Shown: positions 12,218 through 52,605 of the stretch, piece after piece | How the letters are laid out: every line of letters begins with the position of its first letter | Position numbering within the stretch: position 1 is the first letter of the stretch | Origin: Holothuria scabra | Taxonomy: Eukaryota > Echinodermata > Holothuroidea > Aspidochirotida > Holothuriidae | Assembly (NCBI GenBank): GCA_037179385.1 | Contig: CM074179.1 | Coordinates: 9,548,001 to 9,612,000 of the forward strand | Length of the DNA: 64,000 bases | Direction: 5' to 3' | Program-made: the position numbers and the translations under genes | Notes under the pieces: generated by a model | The model's input: the letters and a program-made list of their open reading frames with translations, nothing else | Database searches by the model: none | What the model was told of the DNA's origin: nothing

Positions 12218-12919
12218 TCTTCTCCTTCTCCTTCTCCTTCTCCTTCTCCTTCTCCTTCTCCTTCTCCTTCTCCTTCTCCTTCTCCTTCTCCTTCTCCTTC
12301 TCCTCCTCCTCCTCCTCCTCCTCCTCCTCCTCCTCCTCCTCCTCCTCCTCCTCCTCCTCCTCCTCCTCCTCCTCCTCCTCCTCCTCCTCCTCCTCCTCCT
12401 CCTCCTCCTCCTCCTCCTCCTCCTCCTCCTCCTCCTCCTCCTCCTCCTCCTCCTCCTCCTCCTCCTCCTCCTCCTCCTCCTCCTCCTCCTCCTCCTCCTC
12501 CTCCTCCTCCTCCTCCTCCTCCTCCTCCTCCTCCTCCTCCCTCCTCCTCCTCCTCCTCCTCCTCCTCCTCCTCCTCCTCCTCCTCCTCCTCCTCCTCCTC
12601 CTCCTCCTTCTCCTTCTCCTTCTCCTTCTCCTCCTCCTCCTCCTCCTCCTCCTCCTCCTCCTCCTCCTCCTCCTCCTCCTCCTCCTCCTCCTCCTCCTCC
12701 TCCCTCCTCCTCCTCCTCCTCCTCCTCCTCCTCCTCCTCCTCCTCCTCCTCCTCCTCCTCCTCCTCCTCCTCCTCCTCCTCCTCATCCTCCTCCTCCTCC
12801 TCCTCCTCCTCCTCCTCCTCCTCCTCCTCCTCCTCCTCCTTCTCCTTCTCCTTCTCCTTCTCCTTCTCCTTCTCCTTCTCCTTCTCCTTCTCCTTCTCCT
12901 TCTCCTTCTCCTTCTCCTC

Positions 12920-12961
<42 letters not shown>
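12218..12961. repeat. Pyrimidine microsatellite (CTT/CTC)n, copy A, about 744 bp
   Basis: Composite array on the plus strand: CTTCTC hexamers (to about 12300), nearly pure CTC triplets (to about 12838) with a short CTTCTC interlude at 12606-12632, CTTCTC hexamers again, then CTT triplets (12915-12961). The purine strand is (GAA/GAG)n and abuts the 3' end of a minus-strand LINE, so it probably began as the LINE's simple-repeat tail. The long mirror-symmetric purine-pyrimidine tract could form triplex DNA. The poly-Pro/Ser/Leu/Glu/Arg frames across it are artefacts. Confidence 0.95.
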
Positions 12962-17511: not shown

Positions 17512-17814
17512 ATATTTCCACATGACTAGTGAATTTGTAGCATCAACATAGCTTTCACGGAAGACTGTGGCCGGTTTGACTAAACCAATTGGTAAGAAAC
17601 TGGGCTGTAAAACCCCATCTTACTTACATCATCATAGCAGGCAGGCAGTTAAAGCAGGCCAGTTGTTTTTCTTGAAGTTGCATAGCATTTTTTCTAATTG
17701 TGAAAATTCTAGACCCTCTTATTCATTTGGATTAAAATTGATAGTTGCTACCAATTACCAGTACAAGTTGTGAATACACTTTGGCCTTTTGGGGGTCCAA
17801 CTACATCAATTTTT
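17512..17814 (+). repeat. Flank duplication, left copy (copy A)
   Basis: About 303 bp, from ATATTTCCACATGACTAGTG to CTACATCAATTTTT. It recurs at 21420-21724 on the far side of the ribozyme-repeat array, about 97% identical by eye. Copy B has it once (about 45012-45316). Confidence 0.9.
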
Positions 17815-18958
17815 GTATACAGAAAAATGGCCGACTCTCCAAAAACTCAGTGACGTGTTCAAAGACCAACATGCTCGTGATTAAATAACCATGATGATAG
17901 GTTAAGCTCTTGATTTCGCTTTAAAATTCTTGCGTAATGTGGGAGGATATCACCCGGCAAAGAATAATTTAGCAACTTTCAGTGATGTTTTTAATAGGAA
18001 ACCCAAAGGTGTGAGTTTAAATGTTTTTTTTTTTTTTTTTTTTTTGTGACCTTGTTAGGTAACAAGCCATAGCATGGTGTGCTATTGCTAGACGCGTTTC
18101 GCCCAGAAAGATAATTTTCGGGGCTCATCAGTAGCAAGATGTATAACCGGTAGGCAATGGTGCCAGAGTGTCACGTATAAACTGGTAGGATATTATTCAA
18201 ATAAAACATTTGGAGCCCACGGTCGGGTCCAAAGTGCGCTAAATGAATAAGTGTAACTCTCGGTTAGCAGGTATGCCGGGTAAGGGTGTGATTCGGCTGG
18301 CTTGAAAGAGTTACGATGTGATAGCCCTTTTCGGTATAACCTTATCCCGGTGTTATTCGCGGGACCGACCGGTGTGTCGGAGGTTCCTATTAAAAAACTT
18401 TATTGGATAGTGGTAATCGAGAACATATGTAGGATAAATCGTGTTCTAATAATCAGAGAAATAGCTCAAACGCTCGGTAAGGTAATGCCGATGTTTGGCA
18501 GTTAGGCGTTGATGCTATTTTGATAAGTGCGGTGAGTGAGTTAGAGTACCCCTTGTACGCCCAGTTATGAGCGTGAAAGAAAATACCCTGATTTACGCAA
18601 TCTGATTGGTTGACACGTATGATAGATAAATCAACAATTTGAGATGTCGAATATCTGGTCATTTCGTTCTAGTTTGCTTTGAAAAAATTCGCCTCACAGG
18701 CAAATTATAGCACTGATGACACAGATTAGTGAATAGGATGCTCAGATAATTGTTACTCTATTCTCAAATATAAGTTGAGATACTGGGATGAACGTTCTCA
18801 AGTAAAAATACAGGAAATTGTTGCAAAATTATTTCGGATTTTAACCGTGTGTTTTACATTCTCGTGTATTACGAATGCAAGAGCGTTAGGTACGGTAGGT
18901 TTCGGTTATTTCAACCATGGTAGGCGGAGAGCATGTTAAGAATCGAATTGCCTTTTCC
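17815..18958 (-). mobile_element. Ribozyme-bearing repeat unit 1, inverted (copy A only)
   Basis: Reverse complement of most of units 2 and 3. Read on the minus strand it starts with the GGAAAAGGCAATTCG segment (18958) and runs through the hammerhead at 18080-18140 and an A-tract to GGCCATTTTTCTGTATAC at 17815. It lacks the first 72 bp (GTGAGACGGCCTTGACTGG ... CCATTAACC) present in the other units, because that segment is the centre of the palindrome it forms with unit 2. No RT or GIY-YIG domain is visible. A 69-codon frame is repeated in each unit, without recognisable motifs. Confidence 0.88.
18080..18140 (-). ncRNA. Type I hammerhead ribozyme, unit 1
   Basis: Minus strand. Stem I is TTGCTA pairing with TAGCAA (6 bp). 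The core CTGATGA is followed by stem II GCCC/GGGC, extended by GAAA/TTTC around an ATTATC loop, then CGAAAC, the self-complementary ACGCGT stem III, and the cleavage triplet GTC. All invariant core residues are present. The very short stem III is typical of minimal type I hammerheads in Penelope-like elements and retrozymes, which may act as dimers. Confidence 0.88.
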
Positions 18959-20181
18959 GTGAGACGGCCTTGACTGGTACATTATTGAATCCTAGACGAT
19001 CCTCAGGTTTGTGAAGCTTTTCCATTAACCGGAAAAGGCAATTCGATTCTTAACATGCTCTCCGCCTACCATGGTTGAAATAACCGAAACCTACCGTACC
19101 TAACGCTCTTGCATTCGTAATACACGAGAATGTAAAACACACGGTTAAAATCCGAAATAATTTTGCAACAATTTCCTGTATTTTTACTTGAGAACGTTCA
19201 TCCCAGTATCTCAACTTATATTTGAGAATAGAGTAACAATTATCTGAGCATCCTATTCACTAATCTGTGTCATCAGTGCTATAATTTGCCTGTGAGGCGA
19301 ATTTTTTCAAAGCAAACTAGAACGAAATGACCAGATATTCGACATCTCAAATTGTTGATTTATCTATCATACGTGTCAACCAATCAGATTGCGTAAATCA
19401 GGGTATTTTCTTTCACGCTCATAACTGGGCGTACAAGGGGTACTCTAACTCACTCACCGCACTTATCAAAATAGCATCAACGCCTAACTGCCAAACATCG
19501 GCATTACCTTACCGAGCGTTTGAGCTATTTCTCTGATTATTAGAACACGATTTATCCTACATATGTTCTCGATTACCACTATCCAATAAAGTTTTTTAAT
19601 AGGAACCTCCGACACACCGGTCGGTCCCGCGAATAACACCGGGATAAGGTTATACCGAAAAGGGCTATCACATCGTAACTCTTTCAAGCCAGCCGAATCA
19701 CACCCTTACCCGGCATACCTGCTAACCGAGAGTTACAGTTATTCATTTAGCGCACTTTGGACCCGACCGTGGGCTCCAAATGTTTTATTTGAATAATATC
19801 CTACCAGTTTATACGTGACACTCTGGCACCATTGCCTACCGGTTATACATCATGCTACTGATGAGCCCCGAAAATTATCTTTCTGGGCGAAACGCGTCTA
19901 GCAATAGCACACCATGCTATGGCTTGTTACCTAACAAGGTCACAAAAAAAAAAAAAAAAAAAAAAAAAAAAACATTTAAACTCACACCTTTGGGTTTCCT
20001 ATTAAAAACATCACTGAAAGTTGCTAAATTATTCTTTGCCGGGTGATATCCTCCCACATCACGCAAGAATTTTAAAGCGAAATCAAGAGCTTTACCTATC
20101 ATCATGGTTATTTAATCACGAGCATGTTGGTCTTTGAACACGTCACTGAGTTTTTGGAGAGTCGGCCATTTTTCTGTATAC
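18959..20181 (+). mobile_element. Ribozyme-bearing repeat unit 2, direct (copy A only)
   Basis: Begins GTGAGACGGCCTTGACTGG and ends GGCCATTTTTCTGTATAC. It contains an A-tract of about 31 bases at 19943-19972 and the hammerhead at 19845-19910. A 25-bp linker (TTTGATTTTCTTCTCCATC...) separates it from unit 3, giving a repeat period of 1,248 bp. The unit arrangement (inverted, direct, direct) is one known for Penelope-like elements, whose pseudo-LTRs carry hammerheads. No protein of that class is encoded here. Confidence 0.88.
19845..19910 (+). ncRNA. Type I hammerhead ribozyme, unit 2
   Basis: Stem I TGCTA (19853-19857) pairs with TAGCA (19899-19903). Core CTGATGA (19858-19864); stem II GCCC (19865-19868) with GGGC (19885-19888); GAAA then ACGCGT; predicted cleavage after C19898 in GTC. 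The core sequence is identical to units 1 and 3. Confidence 0.9.
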
Positions 20182-20206
20182 TTTGATTTTCTTCTCCATC
20201 TTTGAT

Positions 20207-21417
20207 GTGAGACGGCCTTGACTGGTACATTATTGAATCCTAGACGATCCTCAGGTTTGTGAAGCTTTTCCATTAACCGGAAAAGGCAATTCGATTCTTA
20301 ACATGCTCTCCGCCTACCATGGTTGAAATAACCGAAACCTACCGTACCTAACGCTCTTGCATTCGTAATACACGAGAATGTAAAACACACGGTTAAAATC
20401 CGAAATAATTTTGCAACAATTTCCTGTATTTTTACTTGAGAACGTTCATCCCAGTATCTCAACTTATATTTGAGAATAGAGTAACAATTATCTGAGCATC
20501 CTATTCACTAATCTGTGTCATCAGTGCTATAATTTGCCTGTGAGGCGAATTTTTTCAAAGCAAACTAGAACGAAATGACCAGATATTCGACATCTCAAAT
20601 TGTTGATTTATCTATCATACGTGTCAACCAATCAGATTGCGTAAATCAGGGTATTTTCTTTCACGCTCATAACTGGGCGTACAAGGGGTACTCTAACTCA
20701 CTCACCGCACTTATCAAAATAGCATCAACGCCTAACTGCCAAACATCGGCATTACCTTACCGAGCGTTTGAGCTATTTCTCTGATTATTAGAACACGATT
20801 TATCCTACATATGTTCTCGATTACCACTATCCAATAAAGTTTTTTAATAGGAACCTCCGACACACCGGTCGGTCCCGCGAATAACACCGGGATAAGGTTA
20901 TACCGAAAAGGGCTATCACATCGTAACTCTTTCAAGCCAGCCGAATCACACCCTTACCCGGCATACCTGCTAACCGAGAGTTACAGTTATTCATTTAGCG
21001 CACTTTGGACCCGACCGTGGGCTCCAAATGTTTTATTTGAATAATATCCTACCAGTTTATACGTGACACTCTGGCACCATTGCCTACCGGTTATACATCA
21101 TGCTACTGATGAGCCCCGAAAATTATCTTTCTGGGCGAAACGCGTCTAGCAATAGCACACCATGCTATGGCTTGTTACCTAACAAGGTCACAAAAAAAAA
21201 AAAAAAAACATTTAAACTCACACCTTTGGGTTTCCTATTAAAAACATCACTGAAAGTTGCTAAATTATTCTTTGCCGGGTGATATCCTCCCACATCACGC
21301 AAGAATTTTAAAGCGAAATCAAGAGCTTAACCTATCATCATGGTTATTTAATCACGAGCATGATGGTCTTTGAACACGTCACTGAGTTTTTGGAGAGTCG
21401 GCCATTTTTCTGTATAC
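20207..21417 (+). mobile_element. Ribozyme-bearing repeat unit 3, direct (copy A only)
   Basis: Nearly identical to unit 2. The main difference is a shorter A-tract (about 17 bases at 21192-21208). It ends GGCCATTTTTCTGTATAC and is followed directly by the right flank duplication. Confidence 0.88.
21093..21158 (+). ncRNA. Type I hammerhead ribozyme, unit 3
   Basis: Same structure as in unit 2: TGCTA at 21101-21105, CTGATGA at 21106-21112, predicted cleavage after C21146. The distance to the unit 2 cleavage site is 1,248 nt. Confidence 0.9.
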
Positions 21418-21419
21418 TT

Positions 21420-21724
21420 ATATTTCCACATGACTAGTGAATTTGTAGCATCAACATAGCTTTCATGGAAGACTGTGGCCGGTTTGACTAAACCAATTGG
21501 TAAGAAACTGGGCTGTAAAACCCCATCTTACTAACATCATCATAGCAGGCAGGCAGCTAAAGCAGGCCAGTTGTTTTTTCTTGAAGTTGCATAGCATTTT
21601 TTCTAATTGTGAAAATTCTAGACCCTCTTATTCATTTGGATTAAAATTAATAGTTGCTACCAGTTACCAGTACAAGTTGTGAATACACTTTGGCCTTTTG
21701 GGGGGTCCAATTACATCAATTTTT
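21420..21724 (+). repeat. Flank duplication, right copy (copy A)
   Basis: Partner of 17512-17814. It continues through a polyT run into sequence shared with copy B. Confidence 0.9.
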
Positions 21725-32123: not shown

Positions 32124-32223
32124 NNNNNNNNNNNNNNNNNNNNNNNNNNNNNNNNNNNNNNNNNNNNNNNNNNNNNNNNNNNNNNNNNNNNNNNNNNNNN
32201 NNNNNNNNNNNNNNNNNNNNNNN
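32124..32223. other. Assembly gap, 100 N
   Basis: A run of exactly 100 N, the conventional placeholder for a scaffold gap of unknown size. It cuts the N-terminal lectin exon of copy A, and the sequence after it restarts at the beginning of the duplicated segment. Confidence 0.99.
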
Positions 32224-39096: not shown

Positions 39097-40277
39097 AAAT
39101 GTCTTCTTCTTCTTCTTCTTCTTCTTCTTCTTCTTCTTCTTCTTCTTCTTCTTCTTCTTCTTCTTCTTCTTCTTCTTCTTCTTCTTCTTCTTCTTCTTCT
39201 TCTTCTTCTTCTTCTTCTTCTTCTTCTTCTTCTTCTTCTTCTTCTTCTTCTTCTTCTTCTTTCTTCTTCTTCTTCTTCTTCTTCTTTCTTCTTCTTCTTC
39301 TTCTTCTTCTTCTTCTTCTTCTTCTTCTTCTTCTTCTTCTTCTTCTTCTTCTTCTTCTTTCTTCTTCTTCTTCTTCTTCTTCTTCTTCTTCTTCTTCTTC
39401 TTCTTCTTCTTCTTCTTCTTCTTCTTCTTCTTCTTCTTCTTCTTCTTCTTCTTCTTCTTCTTCTTCTTCTTCTTCTTCTTCTTCTTCTTCTTCTTCTTCT
39501 TCTTCTTCTTCTTCTTCTTCTTCTTCTTCTTCTTCTTCTTCTTCTTCTTCTTCTTCTTCTTCTTCTTCTTCTTCTTCTTCTTCTTCTTCTTCTTCTTCTT
39601 CTTCTTCTTCTTCTTCTTCTTCTTCTTCTTCTTCTTCTTCTTCTTCTTCTTCTTCTTCTTCTTCTTCTTCTTCTTCTTCTTCTTCTTCTTCTTCTTCTTC
39701 TTCTTCTTCTTCTTCTTCTTTCTTCTTCTTCTTCTTTCTTCTTCTTCTTCTTCTTCTTCTTCTTCTTCTTCTTCTTCTTCTTCTTCTTCTTCTTCTTCTT
39801 CTTCTTCTTCTTCTTCTTCTTCTTCTTCTTCTTCTTCTTCTTCTTCTTCTTCTTCTTCTTCTTCTTCTTCTTCTTCTTCTTCTTCTTCTTCTTCTTCTTC
39901 TTCTTCTTCTTCTTCTTCTTCTTCTTCTTCTTCTTCTTCTTCTTCTTCTTCTTCTTCTTCTTCTTCTTCTTCTTCTTCTTCTTCTTCTTCTTCTTCTTCT
40001 TCTTCTTCTTCTTCTTCTTCTTCTTCTTCTTCTTCTTCTTTCTTCTTCTTCTTCTTCTTCTTCTTCTTCTTTTTCTTCTTCTTCTTCTTCTTCTTCTTCT
40101 TTCTTCTTCTTCTTCTTCTTCTTCTTCTTCTTCTTCTTCTTCTTCTTCTTCTTCTTCTTCTTCTTCTTCTTCTTCTTCTTCTTCTTCTTCTTCTTCTTCT
40201 TCTTCTTCTTCTTCTTCTTCTTCTTCTTCTTCTTCTTCTTCTTCTTCTTCTTCTTCTTCTTCTTCTTCTTCTTCTTC
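39097..40277. repeat. Pyrimidine microsatellite (TTC)n, copy B, about 1.18 kb
   Basis: Almost pure TTC triplets, about 390 units, with a handful of extra-T interruptions. CTC triplets, which dominate the allelic array in copy A, are absent. The left flank also differs from copy A beyond the shared word TTTCAAAATCTT. Confidence 0.95.
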
Positions 40278-40594
40278 TCGGGATTGAATAACCTCCCAGA
40301 GAGTCTTATTGCAGGGCCATAAGTCACTAAAGACGGTGGATTCATTATGAACTTTTGAGGGCCTGGTTGATCACACGGCACGTACGCGGTGTAAAATTGT
40401 CCTTTTGGATGTCTCACCGTGGATGTCTCACCGCTTCTTCTTCAAAACGGTGAGACATCCAAAAGGACAATTTTACACCGCGTACGTGCCGTGTGATCAG
40501 CCAGGCCCTCAAAGAGTTCATAATGAAATCCACCGTCTTTGGTGACTTATGGCCCCCGCAATAAGACTCTCTGGGAGGTTATTCCAATCCCGAG
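40278..40594. repeat. Inverted duplication of the LINE 3' end (copy B only)
   Basis: 40278-40419 is the reverse complement of 40448-40594, with about 145-bp arms, few mismatches and a 28-nt centre containing CTTCTTCTTC. Both arms are the last ~145 bp of the LINE, from ACTCTCTGGGAGGTTATTCC to the tail-adjacent ACATCCAAAAGG. Copy A has only the right arm. It could be a second, 5'-truncated LINE copy joined tail to tail, a repair-generated palindrome, or an assembly fold-back. Confidence 0.85.
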
Positions 40595-43746: not shown

Positions 43747-46237
43747 TTTCATACTTGTCAAGTTATCACTAAAATTAATGTGACATGATTTCATGATTTA
43801 AAGAGTTCTACAGTAGTTTTTAGTAATACAGTTGGTTGGTATGTCTCAGTTAGCCTAGCCGAGGAATTATATAAGCTCAGGTCGCAAATGTTTGTAGGCT
43901 AGTAGTAGCGTTGTGGCCATGATCCAACTTAAACCAAAGGCCTACCAGTGGGGTTAATTTTTCAGTAGTTTATACTTCAGAGCTACAGTATTGGTACTAA
44001 CTGGTTTCCTTTCCTGGAAGTGTCATACCTGCACATGCTTGTATGTACAGTACCCATATCCCTAACCATAGCTCAGTATTTTATCAGCCATTTACTATGG
44101 GTATGCAGGCCCGTACTCCGTAGCCAGCCCATGTGGAGGGGTGGGTCTTTATTCCAAGATGTGGACCTTTTTCCAAATACGGAGGCGGCTGGCATGTGCT
44201 GTAAGCATGCAGCTGATAAGGGTCTAAGGCATGCTTCCCCGGAAAAGTTTGGAATCTGCAGATCTCCTGCAATCTGGAGCATTTAAGGGGGCTTTTGAAC
44301 ACAACAGAAGTCCTTTTTCGCCAGGAATTCCACACAGTACACCACCTTTGAAGAAGTGAACGGAAATTAGTCCTCAATATGTCAAGAAAACATTTCATAG
44401 CTGACCCTTCAAACACAGGGCTGGAAAAATGGACCTCTCTCAAGTTGGGGTGGATCGTTCGAACCCTCTGACCCCCCGACTACGGGCCTGGTATGTGACC
44501 CTTACCTTATATATTGCTATGTGTTCGTAACCCTAACCCTATACCTAGTCGTATTTTTAGAAGAAAACATGATTCTCATCTGTCCTGAGTCGAACATGGG
44601 GGTATTAAGCTCTTGAAACACTGAAGACAGTTTCAAGTTGGCCAGGACTGAAGTTGCTATGACAGGAGGGACACCAGTTTTAGAATTCCAGATGGCCTTG
44701 TGTCAAGGGAGAAAGCTATGTAAAACCCAGCCAGTACCAAAGGCTATTCTTTCAAGAGACTAGTCTTCTACTCTTCGTAACATCAGGAGCCTACTTTAAC
44801 AACCTAACTCGCCTCGAGGAATGCAACTGGTTGGATAAAGAAACAGACTAGGCTACCAGTGTTTGCCTTTAGGCTATACTGCTATACAGAGAGTGTTGTT
44901 TGAGTCTGCTCTGTGTGTAGCAGAGACATTGTTAGCCCAAGTCATCATACATCACTACAAGTTATCCTGCCATTCAGTGACCATGATTTCAGCTCAATCT
45001 TCTTGGGTGACATATTTCCACATGACTAGTGAATCTGTAGCATCAACATAGCTTTCATGGGAGACTGTGGCCGGTTTGACTAAACCAATTGGTAAGAAAC
45101 TGGGCTGTAAAACCCCATCTTACTAACATCATCATAGCAGGCAGGCAGCTAAAGCAGGCCAGTTGTTTTTTCTTGAAGTTGCATAGCATTTTTTCTAATT
45201 GTGAAAATTCTAGACCCTCTTATTCATTTGGATTAAAATTGATAGTTGCTACCAATTACCAGTACAAGTTGTGAATACACTTTGGCCTTTTGGGGGGTCC
45301 AATTACATCAATTTTTTTTTTTTTTTTTTGCCTGTTACTTTTGTTCAGCGTTTTAGAATGTATGTTTTTACAGATTTAACGCTTTATAAATAAATGAGTT
45401 TGAATTTGAATTTTTTGTAGCGCTACGTGGGTCTTAGAAATGTGGTGCCAGCGGACAACTGTGAGCTTCAATAACACAAACCCATGCTTACACAACGGGT
45501 TATGCAATCCAGTAATATAGATCAGTGTGTTAGCCTTTTCATTCAGATATGGCATTGGGCTTTTTTGCAAAGGATAGCATCAATTTATTTTGTTCGAAAA
45601 TAAGTTACAGTTACTTTTGTAAATATACAAATATAAGATAGTAGCAAAATATACCAGTTCAAAGAGAAGTGAATGCTTGAACCTTTTTTCTCATCAATTG
45701 TTTATGAGCTTATCATTTATGGCAATTGGTTACGAGGATTTGCCAATAATAGTGTAAAGCTGCACAGAGTATCAATTGTTCATTGTCTTGTGATAGCAAG
45801 CACAGAGAAGTGGCCATTGATGGACTACTATTGATCCATCCAGATCACATAGTTACAGCCCTGGGAAGCTTTGTATATTTAGCGTGTAGGCTAGTGTATA
45901 TGGTAAGTGTCTAGAACGCCTATTCCAGATACAGTCACAGCTTATGAGTTTAACAGGAAAGTCTGAAATTTGGCTTTGTCTGCTATCTCCTCCAAGACAG
46001 ACGGTTTCATGGGTATGGTGTAATGCAGGTTGTAGGGAATGTTGTTTTGTATCAAATAATAATTTTTGAAGATCGTTTAGCTTTGTTATGGGTGGTAAAA
46101 TGGGTATTTTTCAACAATAAGTCGCGTGGGCGGTGTCTATTTTTAGAGAAAAGGCCACAGAGTTAAATTGTCAAGAACTGGCGAGGTAGCAAATTACTCC
46201 AATATTTTAGAACTGGGATCGAAGTGTGCCTTGCAAT

Positions 46238-46745
46238 TACAGGCCTGCCAGTTTAACCAGTATTGTGTGCAAAGTTATGGAATCTTTAATTCAGGATAGT
46301 TTACTTAATCTGTCACAGCATGGGTTACTGCCAAGCTGATCTTGTGTTACTAACTTTCTGAGCTTTTCTTCAAGACGTCTCTTCATCTCTTGATTCCGGT
46401 CTCTTCATCTCTTGATTCCAGGTATGGTGTTGACAGGGACCGCGGAGAGGGGGGGGGGGGGCTTTAGCCCCCGCACTTATTTTGTTTTGGGCATTTTTGA
46501 CTGCCTTAAACTGCATTTATTTTATTGGACATATTGGGCCGCTTCGATAATTAGCCCCTGCCCTTCAAAATTGATTCCGCAGCCTCTGGTTGATGTCATT
46601 TACCTTGACTTTTTCAAAAGGTCTTTTGATAAAGTTCCATTAGGTACACTGATGGTTTAACTGCATCGTTAGGGGTTCAGGGCAATTGTGCTAATTGGAT
46701 AAATTCCTGGCTTCATGGTAGATCTCAAAGAGTTGCTGTCAATGG
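46238..46745 (+). pseudogene. Decayed LINE RT relic, 5' part (copy B)
   Basis: Allelic to 22640-23147. It is cut at the VAVNG codons by the LTR retrotransposon, and the relic resumes at 52606. Confidence 0.85.
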
Positions 46746-47417
46746 TGTTACGGCTTGGTCGCAATTCAAACCAACAACAGCGAAAGACCACAGAAGAGCG
46801 AGATTAAAATCAACAACTTAATTATTATTCACCTCTTACTTCCTTAAATTCACAACAATTAATCTTAAATCTACTTACAATCTTTTACAGCTTACGGTAT
46901 CACTCTTTGTCCAAGGGGTAGTGTTGTTAGCGTCGATTGTACAGCAGCATAGCGTGGGACTCTGTTCCGCGAAGGCAGGATGAAGACTATAGTGATCGGT
47001 AAATGGCGACACAATTACAGCGTTAGGCGGCGAAACAGACGTCTGGTTTCTGTATTATCTGTGTATCTTCTGTTCTCTTCCCTCCTCTGTCACACTGCTT
47101 GCATGACCTTTTATATATCTGGTAGTTCTTCCAGAAAAGTCTGGAACTCACTCTAATGGAAACGTCTCGTTTGATCTCGTACAAAACAAACAACGAAAGA
47201 TCTGGGCTCAGTAACCCATAACCACAAGTTGGCTATTATTAGGCCATTACATCATACAGTAGTTTCCAGTGGGTGATCGTACATTCTCGTAACCGTGCGA
47301 ATGTTCTCTGGGGTTACCCGTTCAATATGCTTGAGAGAAAACGCCGAAGCTAGCACTTTCTAGAACTTTCCACTTGCTCGTCCGTGGATTCAATCTGGTT
47401 GATGTCGTCTCGTAACA
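46746..47417 (-). repeat. 3' LTR of the Gmr1-like element
   Basis: 672 bp, the same length as the 5' LTR and about 98.7% identical by eye, indicating a fairly recent insertion. It has the same TATATAAAAG box on the minus strand at about 47108-47119. Confidence 0.95.
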
Positions 47418-47432
47418 CCCCCCCCCCCTTGA
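47418..47432 (-). promoter_or_regulatory. Polypurine tract of the LTR element
   Basis: On the minus strand AAG followed by a run of G ends directly at the 3' LTR start (TGTTAC). This is the usual position of the plus-strand priming site. Confidence 0.75.
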
Positions 47433-47668
47433 AAGAGTTTTGGACGTCTAGGACAAAACTTAGGTTACAATATCTACAATATTACCTTATAGTAATAACT
47501 ATAGTATTACAGTATGCATTCCAATATCAAGTGGAAGGTGCTATCATAACATACAACTTGTCTTACAATATGATAATACATGAGTAGTAACATCATTAAC
47601 ACCCACTGTGCTGCAGGCAACATCAAAATTTCAAAATTACAGTACGACTTTTAATCTACTCCATCAGA

Positions 47669-48047
47669 TTAAGTTCTTGACAAAGCATCAGGCACAACAT
47701 TGTCTTTCCCTTTAATGTGCCTAATATCTACATTATTTGATTGTAGAAACAAACTCCATCTCATCAATCTCTGATTCTTGTTCTTCATCTTAGACAGAAA
47801 TGTCAGAGGATTATGATCAGTATATACAATAACAGGGAAACTAGTAGTCCCCAAATAAACATCAAAGTGCTGAAGACCAAGTATCAAAGCTAATGTTTCT
47901 TTCTCAATTGTAGAATAATTTTTCTGATGTCTGTCAAATTTCTTTGAATAATAACACACAGGGTGATCAACACCATGCTCATCAGCTTGAAGCAAAACTG
48001 CTCCTATACCATTGTCACTGGCATCAACTGCTAGCTTAAACTGTTTT
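47669..48047 (-). pseudogene. RNase H of the LTR element
   Basis: Minus strand. LAVDASDNGIGAVLLQ supplies the first catalytic aspartate. SKKFDRHQKNYSTIEKETLA holds the glutamate, and VIVYTDHNPLTFLSK the TDH block. RHIKGKDNVVPDALSR, ending at the stop, is the conserved terminal aspartate region. It lies directly before the non-coding segment leading to the 3' LTR, so RNase H is the last domain, as expected for a Gmr1-like order. Confidence 0.9.
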
Positions 48048-48829
48048 TCAAAGCAATCAACACTGGCGAACTCATTAGTGCTCTTTTCAATGATTCAAAT
48101 GCTGCCTGACAACTTTCTGTCCAAACAAACTTTTCATCTGAGAGCAAGCATACATATTCATTGATTAATGATTTCATTTCTGATCTTTGTTTGTCATCTA
48201 GATGACTTAACTTCTGATCAAGATTACTCAATACATCAGAGTTTTTTAACTTAATACACATGTCAGGAACATCATCAGCATTAATCTCATCATTATCAGT
48301 GAATTCTTGATCAACACTGATGATACACACTTGATCACATGCATCATTAACTTTGACATTCACATTATGTTCACTTTCATCCTTAGAAATGTCACAATCC
48401 TCTCTTTCATAATATTTTTTCATCATATTAATGTGACAAACTCTCTTCGATTTACGCTTGTCAGGTGTCAGGATGACATAGTCTGTGTCATTGACCTTTC
48501 TTTCAATGACATAAGGTCCTTGAAAGCGAGCTTGAAGTGGCTGACCAGACACAGGCAAAAACACTAACACCTTCTCACCAGGCTTAAACTCTCTTTCCAC
48601 AGTGGTCTTATCAAACCACGCCTTCATTTTCTTCTGAGAATTCCTCAGATTTTCTTGAGCCAGTTCACATGCTCTGTGAAAACGCTCTTTAAAGCGGGAT
48701 ACGTAATCAAGCAGATGTATGTTTTCACGTGGATCTGATAACCACTTCTCCTTTAATAATTTCAATGGTCCACGAACTATGTGTCCGAAGATGAGTTCAA
48801 ATGGACTGGAACCCAAGTGACTCCTGTAC
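48048..48829 (-). pseudogene. Integrase C-terminus fused to RT start and RNase H start (RT core deleted)
   Basis: Minus strand. The integrase C-terminal region runs from SSPFELIFGH through AWFDKTT and the chromatin-contact fold FKPGEKVLVFLPVSGQPLQ, then RFQGPYVIERKVNDTDYVIL. An acidic linker follows, then SHLDDKQRSEMKSLINEYVC, the usual lead-in to Ty3-type RT. At about 48137 this joins directly to FVWTESCQAAFESLKRAL, the start of RNase H. The whole RT palm, including the Y-x-D-D site, is missing, roughly 1 kb. A small frame-shifting deletion at about 48045-48052 ends the frame. Confidence 0.88.
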
Positions 48830-49165
48830 AGACTCCCTGACAGCAAACATTACAAATGGAATGCCTTCATCCCAATCTTTCTCATTGTCATGACAATATG
48901 TCTTTAACATATTTTTCAATGTTTGGTGAAACCTTTCTAAAGCTCCTTGGCTTTCGGGATGATAAGCCGAAGACTTAATTTGCTCTATGCTTAATTCATA
49001 CAACGTCTGTTGGAATACAGTTGACATGAAATTAGACCCTTGATCTGATTGGATCTCCTTAGGTAACCCAAACAATGTGAAAAATTTAAGTAAAGCTTGT
49101 AAGACTGTCCGAGCCTTAATATTCCTTAGAGGTATTGCCTCTGGAAACCTTGTCGAAGCTAACAC
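48830..49165 (-). pseudogene. Integrase catalytic core, second part, of the LTR element
   Basis: Minus strand. Contains the second aspartate in QSDQGSNF and the catalytic glutamate in HPESQGALERFHQTLK, so the DDE triad is complete across the frame change at 49163. An extra C near 48808-48815 breaks the frame again before the C-terminal domain. Confidence 0.88.
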
Positions 49166-51160
49166 ATTATGGTTAATATATACTGATGTCCTGCCCTACT
49201 CTTAGGTAGAGGACCTACACAATCAATAATGACTCTACTAAATGGCTCTTCAAAAGCAGGAATTGGCTTTAAGGGTGCAGCCGGAATATTCTGATTCGGC
49301 TTCCCAACCATTTGACATGAATGACAAGTCTTACAAAATTTGGCCACATCACTCTTAAGCTTAGGCCAATAAAAGTGATTTAGAATATTGTGGTAAGTCT
49401 TATTGACCCCTAGGTGCCCTGCAAATGGCATTTCATGAGCAATGCTCAGTATTTCCTTTCGATACACCCTAGGTACCCCAATTTGATGGTAAATGCGCCA
49501 CTCTTCATCTAAGGGTGCATCAGGTGGTCGCCATTTACGCATCAAAACACCGTTCTTAAGGTAAAAACACACTGGGACCTCTTTCGACTCATCCTCAGTG
49601 AGGGCACCAGCAATTAGTGGCTGAAGCTCTTCATCATGTTGTTGTTGGACTGACAACTGGTCTTTATGGAGTGTGTCAGACATGTTTCTTTCCTGTTCTA
49701 TCCCCTCACCATGTGTGGGGACAGGAGACTCACAATCCTGACGATTGGCCATAAAAGTTTGGCTGAGATCAAACCAAGAATCTTCACTTTCATCAATATT
49801 CCTTTCAGAGTCCTCTTTGGACTCTGACTCCACTTTTGGGAGTGTTGTTCCATTTTTAGGAACTAATTCCTCAATTTTAGAGGGCGGAGGCTTAAATTTA
49901 CCATCCTTCTTTTCAGAAATCATACCCTCACTTTTAGAGAGTGGATGTTCAAGATTATCATCCTTACATGATTCCTTACTTGTTTCACTTTTGGAAACTG
50001 GATCCTCACTTTTGGAGGCTGGATGTTTAAGATTATCATCCATAGGAAGCTTTTTTGACATAGCTCTCGTGACAGCACAGGCTGGGAATAAATCTGGAAA
50101 TTCCTTTTCTAATTGCTCTGTGTTGTTATAGTCACATGGTTTATCTGTCAAAATTGCATTGGCGACTACCTTTCCACCAGCTAGGTCATTGCCTAGCAAC
50201 AGAGATACCCCCTTTACAGATAGAGTAGGTCTGACCCCTACTATGACCGACCCAGAAACTAAATCTGACTTCAAATTAATTTTGTGAAGAGGGACAGAAA
50301 TAAATCCACATTCAACCCCCTGAATTAGTACATTTGCCCCTGTGGAAGTAGAGTCCGTTAATGGCAAAACTCCATCAAGAAGCAACGACTGAGTTGCGCC
50401 TGTGTCACGCAAAATTTTAATTTTGACGGGTGGATGAGCTGAATCCCCATCTAGGGAAATAAAACCCTCAGACACGAATGGAAGGTATTCTTCCTTAATT
50501 TGGTCGTTAGAATTAGGCCGTAAAGTCACGACTACCTCTGGAGAATTTTCTGCATTGGCTAAGGCATTTGGAGCTGTTTCAGTCTCCTTTAATTTTGCCA
50601 ATTGAAAGCAATTTGCCATTATGTGGCCCTTTTTGTGACAGAAACCACAAACTATGTCTTTAAAGGCAGCTTTATTTGAGCTGACCTGGTCGTTCTTTTG
50701 ACGACTAGAATCTGGTTGTTTTTTACCAGAATTTGTTGGAGAGAGGGAACCAGACAGAGATCCACTAATTTTACCTGCTGTGTCACCACTAGTGCCATTG
50801 CCATATTTTTTATTTGGCCTTTTAAACTGACTCTTGTTTTGAGTCTGACCTACTTTACCGAACTTATGGGTAAGTGCATACTGATCAGCTAAATTTGCCA
50901 CTTCTTTCAATTTGTCCGCCTTTTGTTCTTCAAGGTGAGTCTTTATGTCATCACTCACACACCGTTTAAATTCCTCGACCAGCATCAGTTGTCGTAAGGA
51001 GTCAAATGTGGAAACCTTTTTAGAATCACACCATCTATCGAAATGCCTTTCCTTTTGATAGGCAAACTCTACATATGTTTGTGTATCCGCCTTACGATAT
51101 TTTCTAAATTTTTGGCGATAAGCCTCGGGTACTAACTCATAGGCTTGTAATATGGCCTTT
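49166..51160 (-). pseudogene. gag C-terminus, protease and integrase N-terminus of the LTR element
   Basis: One long minus-strand frame, open from about 51160 to a stop near 49160. Counting from the internal Met at 50985, a CCHC zinc knuckle (C-x2-C-x4-H-x4-C) occupies residues 113-126 and the aspartic protease signature DTGA is at 194-197. A long serine/lysine/glutamate-rich linker with repeated SKSE words covers about 310-400. The integrase H2C2 zinc-binding domain covers about 510-557, and the first catalytic aspartate (IIDCVGP) is near 588. No RT lies between protease and integrase. A one-base change at about 49163 shifts the frame into the rest of the integrase core. Confidence 0.9.
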
Positions 51161-51805
51161 GACCTTATCGTAATCCATGCTGTCCTCTATTGACAGAGCG
51201 GAATACACTTCCTGGGCCTTGCCAGTAAAATTACTCTGAATGAGTATCGACCATTTATCTCTGGGCCACTTTAATTGTTCACCCAGTTTTTCAAAGTGGT
51301 TGAAAAATTTCTCCACATTATCCTCCTGAAATTTGGGCACAAATTTTACGTGCTTAGAGACATCAAACAGCTTAGTATCCATGCCTATTTTAGGTTCTGG
51401 GCCCTTTATGACCCCTAATTCCAGTTGTTTCAACCTAAATTCATGCTCTCTAGCCTCTTTCTCTCTTTCCCTTTGCATTTCCAATTCTTTCAATCTAACT
51501 TCTCTTTCCTTTTCTTCCCATTCTTTTTCCAATTCTTTCAATCTAACTTCTTTTTCCAATTCAAGCTTTCTCAATTCAAATGCATTGTCAGTTGGCACGG
51601 TCATGATTGTCTCAAGCACTGTAATTGGCAGAATACTTTCATCTACCAGATATTCTACAATGTATCTCTTAATCTCGTCCTTCCGCATTAATGACTGAAA
51701 TTCAACGCCATAGTGTTTTGCGACTTTTACAATCTCAGACTTTTTTAGTGAGTTAAGCTCCTCAATTGAGGGGCTAGCCACGAATTTATCTAAATCGAAT
51801 GGCAT
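51161..51805 (-). pseudogene. gag, N-terminal part, of the LTR element
   Basis: Minus strand from ATG at 51805. Residues about 1-50 resemble a short SAP-like helical motif. Residues about 75-135 form a long charged heptad-rich helix (repeated R-L-K-E-L-E), a likely coiled coil. About residues 150-215 read as a SCAN-like capsid segment (VKFVPKFQEDNVEKFFNHFE, then W-P-R-D-K-W and GKAQEVYSAL). Published work derives the vertebrate SCAN domain from Gmr1-like gag, which fits. An extra base near 51160 shifts the frame; the capsid continues in another frame into the next entry. Confidence 0.85.
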
Positions 51806-51933
51806 TTTGAGGTTGTGTCAAACACTCACAAACAACTAAGAAGTCTGGACAATACAGTTGCAAATTACAACGAAATTTCTCGAATTTTCTACCTGGTAGT
51901 ATAATTCTTTCCCGGATGTTAGGCCACCAATTC

Positions 51934-52605
51934 TGTTACGGCTTGGTCGCAATTCAAATTAACAACAGCGAAAGACCACAGAAGAGCGAGATTAAAATCA
52001 ACAACTTAATTATTATTCACCTCTTACTTCCTTAAATTCACAACAATTAATCTTAAATCTACTTACAATCTTTTACAGCTTACGGTATCACTCTTTGTCC
52101 AAGGGGTAGTGTTGTTAGCGTCGATTGTACAACAGCATAGCGTGGGACTCTGTTCCGCGAAGGCAGGATGAAGACTATAGTGATCGGTAAATGGCGACAC
52201 AATTACAGCGTTAGGCGGCGAAGCAGACGTCTGGTTTCTGTATTATCTGTGTATCTTCTGTTCTCTTCCCTCCTCTGTCACACTGCTTGCATGACCTTTT
52301 ATATATCTGGTAGTTCTTCCAGAAAAGTCTGGAACTCACTCTAATGGAAACGTCTCGTTTGATCTCGTACAAAACAAACAGCGAAAGTTCTGGGCTCAGT
52401 AACCCATAACCACAAGTTGGCTATTATTAGGCCATTACATCATACAGTAGTTTCCAGTAGGTGATCGTACATTCTCGTAACCGTGCGAATGTTCTCTGGG
52501 GTTACCCGTTCAATATGCTCGAGAGAAAACGCCGAAGCTAGCACTTTCTAGAACTTTCCACTTGCTCTTCCGTGGATTCAATCTGGTTGATGTCGTCTCG
52601 TAACA
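51934..52605 (-). repeat. 5' LTR of the Gmr1-like element
   Basis: 672 bp, bounded by TGTTAC and GTAACA. On the minus strand a TATATAAAAG box lies at about 52295-52306. I count about nine differences from the 3' LTR by eye. Confidence 0.95.

Follow-up and report, generated by a model that had tools for sequence, protein, structure and literature searches.

A non-coding, hammerhead-bearing unit of Holothuria scabra that is probably a non-autonomous Penelope-like retroelement

Penelope-like elements can carry a minimal hammerhead ribozyme, whose role in them is called a mystery in the available portion of PMC7761336. For the Anolis element, the accessible text of PMC11167929 places the start of reverse transcription inside the RNA, describes a minimal RNA that reaches 3′ of this start, and reports that the protein cuts and extends both DNA strands. 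Penelope copies of Adineta vaga show inverted plus direct terminal repeats with tails, and for endonuclease-deficient relatives priming from exposed chromosome ends or breaks has been described (both according to the available sections of PMC3846280). Here we analyse a stretch of 64,000 nucleotides of the Holothuria scabra genome (the window; contig CM074179.1, positions 9,548,001–9,612,000), in which three 1.2-kb units, each with a hammerhead motif, occupy positions 17,815–21,417. They form one insertion, most likely copied by the reverse transcriptase (RT) of a Penelope-like element elsewhere in the genome, and the insertion is probably a non-autonomous Penelope-like retroelement with a unit of 1236 bp.

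All coordinates are positions in the window, and unit positions refer to 1–1236 of unit 3 (20,182–21,417, plus strand), which serves as the reference. Unit 2 (18,960–20,181, plus strand) is truncated at its 5′ end near unit position 26, ends at unit position 1236 and meets unit 3 head-to-tail. Unit 1 (17,815–18,959) lies inverted, on the minus strand, is 5′-truncated near unit position 97 and meets unit 2 head-to-head at 18,959/18,960. The outer end of unit 1 is the 3′ end of the element, GTATAC, the insert being bounded on its two sides by this same end in opposite orientation. Pairs of units differ at 2 to 4 positions per ~1140 bases (0.2–0.35%), and the G+C content of the unit is 40%. An A-run lies inside the unit at about 993–1012, 3′ of the hammerhead and not at the 3′ end of the unit; its length is variable, 29 in unit 2 (19,944–19,972) and shorter in units 1 and 3. 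The whole insert is enclosed by a direct duplication of 303 bp, whose left copy, X_L (17,512–17,814), aligns with the right copy, X_R (21,420–21,722; 6 of 301 aligned bases differ), and with a single copy at 45,012–45,316, on a second contig, which represents the insertion-free locus. The original prediction had described three hammerhead-bearing copies of 1.2 kb with the limits 17,815–21,417, and these points were borne out. The copies are not all direct, and the prediction had anticipated neither the inverted unit nor the flanking duplication nor the empty copy.

The pattern CTGATGA-N-CGAAAC-N-GTC matched the window exactly at three places, 18,091–18,131 (minus strand), 19,858–19,898 and 21,106–21,146 (both plus strand), with a maximum of 0 matches in 100 dinucleotide shuffles of the window. 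Pattern and covariance-model results, together with folding for unit 1, place the hammerheads at 18,083–18,137 (unit 1, minus strand), 19,853–19,903 (unit 2, plus strand, predicted cut at 19,898/19,899) and 21,101–21,151 (unit 3, plus strand, predicted cut at 21,146/21,147), those of units 2 and 3 being 1248 bp apart. Stem II is formed by GCCC/GGGC plus an inner GAAA/TTTC. Stem I has 6 bp in unit 1, as predicted, and 5 bp in the other two units; no internal loop was seen in it, and no loop–loop partner was noticed. Stem III is a loop-less ACGCGU palindrome that allows at most one pair in a monomer, so that the “full hammerhead” claimed beforehand is an overstatement. Because ACGCGU pairs fully only with a second copy, the hammerhead probably acts as a dimer and, judged from the sequence, the three motifs are probably of the minimal type I form acting in pairs. 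For unit 1, the minimum free energy (MFE) structure of the monomer (−15.0 kcal/mol) is not a hammerhead, the one-pair monomer hammerhead reaching −7.8 kcal/mol. The double-hammerhead dimer with both active sites has −35.1 kcal/mol, versus −30.0 kcal/mol for two monomer MFEs, and the best cofold of the pair (−35.8 kcal/mol) adopts a structure other than the double hammerhead. Folded as separate strands, the motifs gain only a modest margin over shuffled sequences (z between −1.7 and −2.0).

The covariance-model check was passed weakly. An Rfam scan of the window at gathering thresholds gave 0 matches; with an E-value threshold, Hammerhead_HH9 was found at all three sites with 25.4, 21.6 and 21.6 bits (E-values 0.0037, 0.065 and 0.065), versus a gathering threshold of 52. 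Stronger support comes from the copies of the motif across the genome (1.19 Gb in 31 contigs), where the exact pattern occurs 129 times and a reversed control pattern once. A 121-base hammerhead query had 428 candidates, of which 40 were scored; all 40 matched, and they are spread over 17 of the 31 contigs. Among the pattern matches listed there are 41 distinct motif strings, 17 of which have C-G and 19 A-T as the second pair of stem II. Of 164 stem II cells, 146 are paired, compared with 128 on average and 140 at most in 2000 shuffles, which take no account of relatedness. The motif strings form families with compensatory C-G/A-T exchange in stem II.

Looser or wider searches were also made. 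A looser hammerhead descriptor, which had 0 matches in 100 mononucleotide shuffles, found a fourth place in the window at ~34,660, with the core CTGAAGA and a long stem II; owing to its loops, this match was judged to be due to chance. In viral contigs, nine pattern matches lacked the stems by eye; an Rfam search of these nine at gathering thresholds gave 0 matches, which is uninformative because the motifs of the window fail the same threshold. A stricter pattern had 0 matches in contigs of prokaryote genomes.

No protein was detected in the unit itself, its six frames matching no Pfam family, in agreement with the prediction. RT frames occur in a partner element that shares modules with it. 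Tandem hammerheads 2.7 kb apart pointed to two loci (L042 and L043), both with an RT frame, and such frames were found in L042, L043 and L044–L053, L043 and L044 holding one and the same copy. They comprise 620–724 amino acids, or ~700 in round terms. Of 1935 candidates for a 265-amino-acid RT query, 144 were scored, which yielded 146 matches, several of them in long open frames. We take the frames to be of Penelope type on sequence motifs; together with the organisation of hammerhead, tandem and tail, these make the partner frame look like a Penelope-type RT. The exact hammerhead pattern is present in eight of the ten loci L044–L053, the exceptions being L046 and L047. L051 and L052 each hold an autonomous element of ~3.6 kb. 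The RT frame of L052 stops 57 nucleotides 5′ of the hammerhead core, and the tail starts ~210 nucleotides 3′ of this core.

Three modules are common to the unit and its partner. The head (unit 1–80; 20,182–20,261, plus strand) is 95% identical over unit 2–80 in L051 and L052. The hammerhead with the next ~55 nucleotides (unit 913–1024) is 88–89% identical in L051–L053. The tail (unit 1190–1236; 21,371–21,417, plus strand), which is the 3′ end of the element and the presumed start point of the RT, is identical in L051–L053 over the 38 nucleotides of unit 1190–1227. These are matches of ordinary BLAST; under looser scoring, unit 882–1227, from hammerhead to tail, aligns throughout to the partner at 69–70%. 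The sharing of hammerhead, tail and head with RT-bearing elements of the same genome supports the link to Penelope that had been suggested.

Of the RT and GIY-YIG domains for which a search had been proposed, the partner has an RT frame, and a GIY-YIG domain was not found in it. Pfam had no match to such an endonuclease in the second open reading frame of L046, L052 and L053 or in the upstream frames of L051 and L052, and a motif scan confined to L042–L056 revealed no GIY-YIG-like motif in six frames. Among more distant relatives, L055 has a frame of 208 amino acids upstream and L056 one of 236, and in neither of them nor in L054 could a GIY-YIG-like domain be discerned. The region upstream in L052 has shorter frames only, with 21% likeness in a doubtful alignment. 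A search of solved structures (PDB) with the partner RT frame gave 0 matches, and its AlphaFold model (mean predicted local distance difference test score 39.9) was too poor for use. As a separate observation, Penelope-type RT matches are regularly spaced at ~3.3–3.6 kb in C28 (a 62.7-kb contig), in C24 and at 25.03–25.05 Mb of C17, which suggests tandem arrays.

Twenty loci with copies of the unit were fetched, chosen with a query that spans the cut site. The outer 3′ end falls within unit 1233–1236 in 17 of them (exceptions L028, L033 and L035), the 5′ ends are variable, and half (10/20) contain the exact tail|head tandem junction 1236|1. Direct duplications abut the insert in six of the 20 loci and measure 22 bp (L029), ~30 bp (L022), 104 bp (L027, around a composite insert), 180 bp (L037), 303–306 bp (the window and L019) and 412 bp (L024). 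Duplications that do not abut the insert or that lie in simple repeats (L018, L023, L025, L026 and L030) are not counted here. In L024 (2230–4858), two truncated units are accompanied by three copies of the 412-bp flank, a pattern that subsequent unequal exchange could have produced from the duplication. Several loci have AT-rich junctions by eye. The head, hammerhead, post-hammerhead and tail segments vary less than unit 100–880 (58 of 5101 versus 494 of 18,531 base comparisons, A-run excluded), a difference whose p-value is not independent evidence because the copies are related.

Among other explanations, the one that survives best, and which we still consider improbable, is that the unit is a large animal retrozyme, an element without long terminal repeats (LTRs) that is defined by its ribozyme, spreads via circular RNA and is mobilised by any available RT. 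The type I hammerhead, the tandem units, the want of a detected reading-frame product and the G+C content would suit a retrozyme, for which the available part of PMC7229834 proposes long interspersed nuclear elements (LINEs) or Penelope-like elements as mobilisers. However, the 1248 nucleotides between cut sites compare with about 170–400 nucleotides in animal retrozymes (PMC7229834, as far as accessible), which upholds the earlier remark that the unit would be large for one. Moreover, stem III has one pair with no loop–loop partner noticed, and the unit shares with its partner the tail and head, that is, more than the ribozyme alone.

It is very unlikely that the arrangement of flank, element and flank is an artefact of assembly or of segmental duplication and not the product of an insertion. 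The suspicion arises because the window holds two similar contigs joined by 100 N (32,124–32,223), and because its units are so much more alike than those of L019 (C1:15,925,500–15,935,400), another insert-bearing copy of the locus, whose units differ mutually by 1.8–4%. The two ~27-kb stretches on either side of the N (5418–32,123 and 32,224–61,536) differ by 0.6 to 3.1% in four stretches measured and are, from their sequence, probably uncollapsed haplotypes or paralogues placed in tandem as duplicate contigs. Yet the same arrangement stands at 15.93 Mb of C1, with the breakpoints of units 1 and 2 as in the window and with both flanking duplicates identical to those of the window (0/303 and 0/304 differences), and long abutting duplications recur at L024 and L037, which are unrelated loci. 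Between the left and the right duplicate the difference is 2%; this and the divergence of the L019 units indicate that the insertion did not happen very recently, and the close likeness of the units in the window is probably an effect of later homogenisation (conversion) or of assembly or polishing.

A fold-back DNA transposon, with the 1.1-kb inverted ends as terminal inverted repeats, is scarcely credible. The ends of the insert are indeed inverted copies, but among the 20 loci inverted head-to-head pairs occur only in L019, which is the same insertion as that of the window, and in L022. At the remaining loci the copies stand singly or in direct orientation, most of them sharing the 3′ end and differing at the 5′ end, and the duplications range from 22 to 412 bp. 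That the hammerhead belongs to an APE-type LINE, the unit being an internally deleted LINE copy, can practically be dismissed: L018 and L022 do carry LINE RT frames between unit pieces, but a query across the LINE/unit join of L018 matched as a whole only at L018 (40 scored of 310 candidates), the other matches covering either the LINE part (to ~355) or the unit part (from ~355), and the overlaps at unit 552–563 (L018) and 517–525 (L022) are read as target duplications of nested insertions. The L018 LINE, with its APE endonuclease and RT, was accordingly rejected as the autonomous source, being a nested insertion by this join query. The LINE insertions in L018 (3424–7953) and L022 (3033–5961) are alike by eye and lie ~35 bp apart within the unit; a site preference of this LINE for the unit is possible.

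If the unit is a non-autonomous Penelope-like element, its spread could be pictured as follows. Tandem copies would be transcribed as multimers, in which neighbouring hammerheads would pair through ACGCGU and cut after GUC. Cutting after unit position 965 would release unit-length RNAs that retain an unbroken tail|head junction and could be circularised. The partner RT would recognise the joined tail–head region and, with an exposed DNA 3′ end as primer, start at GTATAC. In the window, a break with 303-nucleotide 3′ overhangs would have allowed each 3′ end to prime a copy; the two complementary DNAs would then have joined head-to-head, and fill-in would have duplicated the 303 bp. Priming from both 3′ ends would explain the identical border ends, the head-to-head join and the 303-bp duplication together. 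As the tail lies next to the head only where the RNA is tandem or circular, the conserved site probably spans their junction, and this restriction would give the ribozyme a role. Put more generally, and as a tentative proposal that we hold to be possible and not yet likely, a Penelope-like RT that lacks an endonuclease of its own may spread through the genome, along with a family of non-coding passengers, by priming at staggered breaks that are already present, with the duplication of tens to hundreds of bases of the target. Its recognition site on the RNA would be split across tail and head, only tandem-derived or circular RNA would serve as substrate, and the dimeric hammerhead would cut multimers into units with the site intact.

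Several points weigh against the Penelope-like interpretation and the mechanism built on it. The partner frames stay under the Pfam cut-off for RVT_1 (best 28.1 versus 29.6 bits, E-values 2e-6 to 3e-6), a first Pfam pass having given a weak RVT_1 match in L043 and none in L042. The absence of an endonuclease rests on Pfam plus a motif scan of the partner loci. No flank duplication was found around the autonomous copy in L042, the one autonomous copy checked, and in 14 of the 20 unit loci the settings used revealed none next to the insert. Because the query used to choose these loci spans the cut site, copies that start exactly at the cut could not appear among them. A stem-loop across the tail|head junction is no better than in shuffles (z 0.5 to 1.2 in five sequences), and mutation of the ribozyme left in vitro insertion of the Anolis element unaffected, according to the accessible text of PMC11167929.

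Other features of the window and of the unit are mentioned for completeness. A viroid or rod-like circle was considered and dropped: the circular fold of the unit, with 56% of the plus-strand bases paired, had z −4.7 against 60 shuffles for the plus strand and z −3.2 against 24 shuffles for the minus strand, and one of eight other stretches of the window reached −3.9 (8 shuffles each). The second contig contains, at 46,740–52,605, an LTR element that is absent from the first; its LTRs are 98.4% alike, Pfam recognises integrase and SCAN domains in it, and we take it to be Gypsy-like. Long pyrimidine microsatellites (CTCCTC and TCT) lie at 12,222–12,921 and 39,102–40,278, matching places of the two contigs.

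Within a literature search that was incomplete for key papers, no non-coding, hammerhead-bearing 1.2-kb family was met that shares tail and head with an apparently endonuclease-free Penelope-like partner. One paper, PMC6685494, reportedly uses the phrase “nonautonomous Penelope”. That a non-coding passenger retains hammerhead, tail and head suggests which parts are required in cis, and opens the hypothesis of a tandem or circular substrate to testing. If the partner truly is free of an endonuclease, the dispersal of its copies and the length of the target duplications would add to the ways in which these relatives of telomerase are known to insert.

The known systems can be compared with the window as far as the available parts of the respective papers describe them. 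Penelope/Poseidon, Pen2a_Av of Adineta vaga and PAc of Anolis resemble the unit in their minimal type I hammerhead and common tail end, and Penelope-like elements with hammerheads likewise show tandem and inverted-plus-direct copies and AT-rich junctions. In these elements the RT starts inside the RNA, as would be the case here. They differ in that the unit of the window is non-coding and its partner is without a detected GIY-YIG domain; canonical Penelope-like elements carry this domain, whereas none is detected in the partner, as in endonuclease-deficient members. Flanking duplications reach 412 bp here, in contrast to 8–10 bp or none in A. vaga (PMC3846280), where Penelope copies of comparable inverted-plus-direct structure show 9–10 bp or none. 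The sequences captured between terminal repeats of A. vaga Pen3a are also machinery-free DNA moved between element ends, but the carrier here is a repeated family with a defined 1236-bp unit. Animal retrozymes without LTRs (PMC7229834) are likewise non-coding and tandem, with a type I hammerhead. They are smaller and have canonical tertiary contacts; the unit is far longer and its hammerhead, judged from the sequence, is probably minimal. Athena and the Terminons (PMC3846280, PMC6431247), the latter with hammerheads, resemble the partner in having an RT without a detected endonuclease. They are described as mostly restricted to chromosome ends, whereas the 40 scored copies of the unit are spread over 17 of the 31 contigs, some of them with abutting flank duplications.

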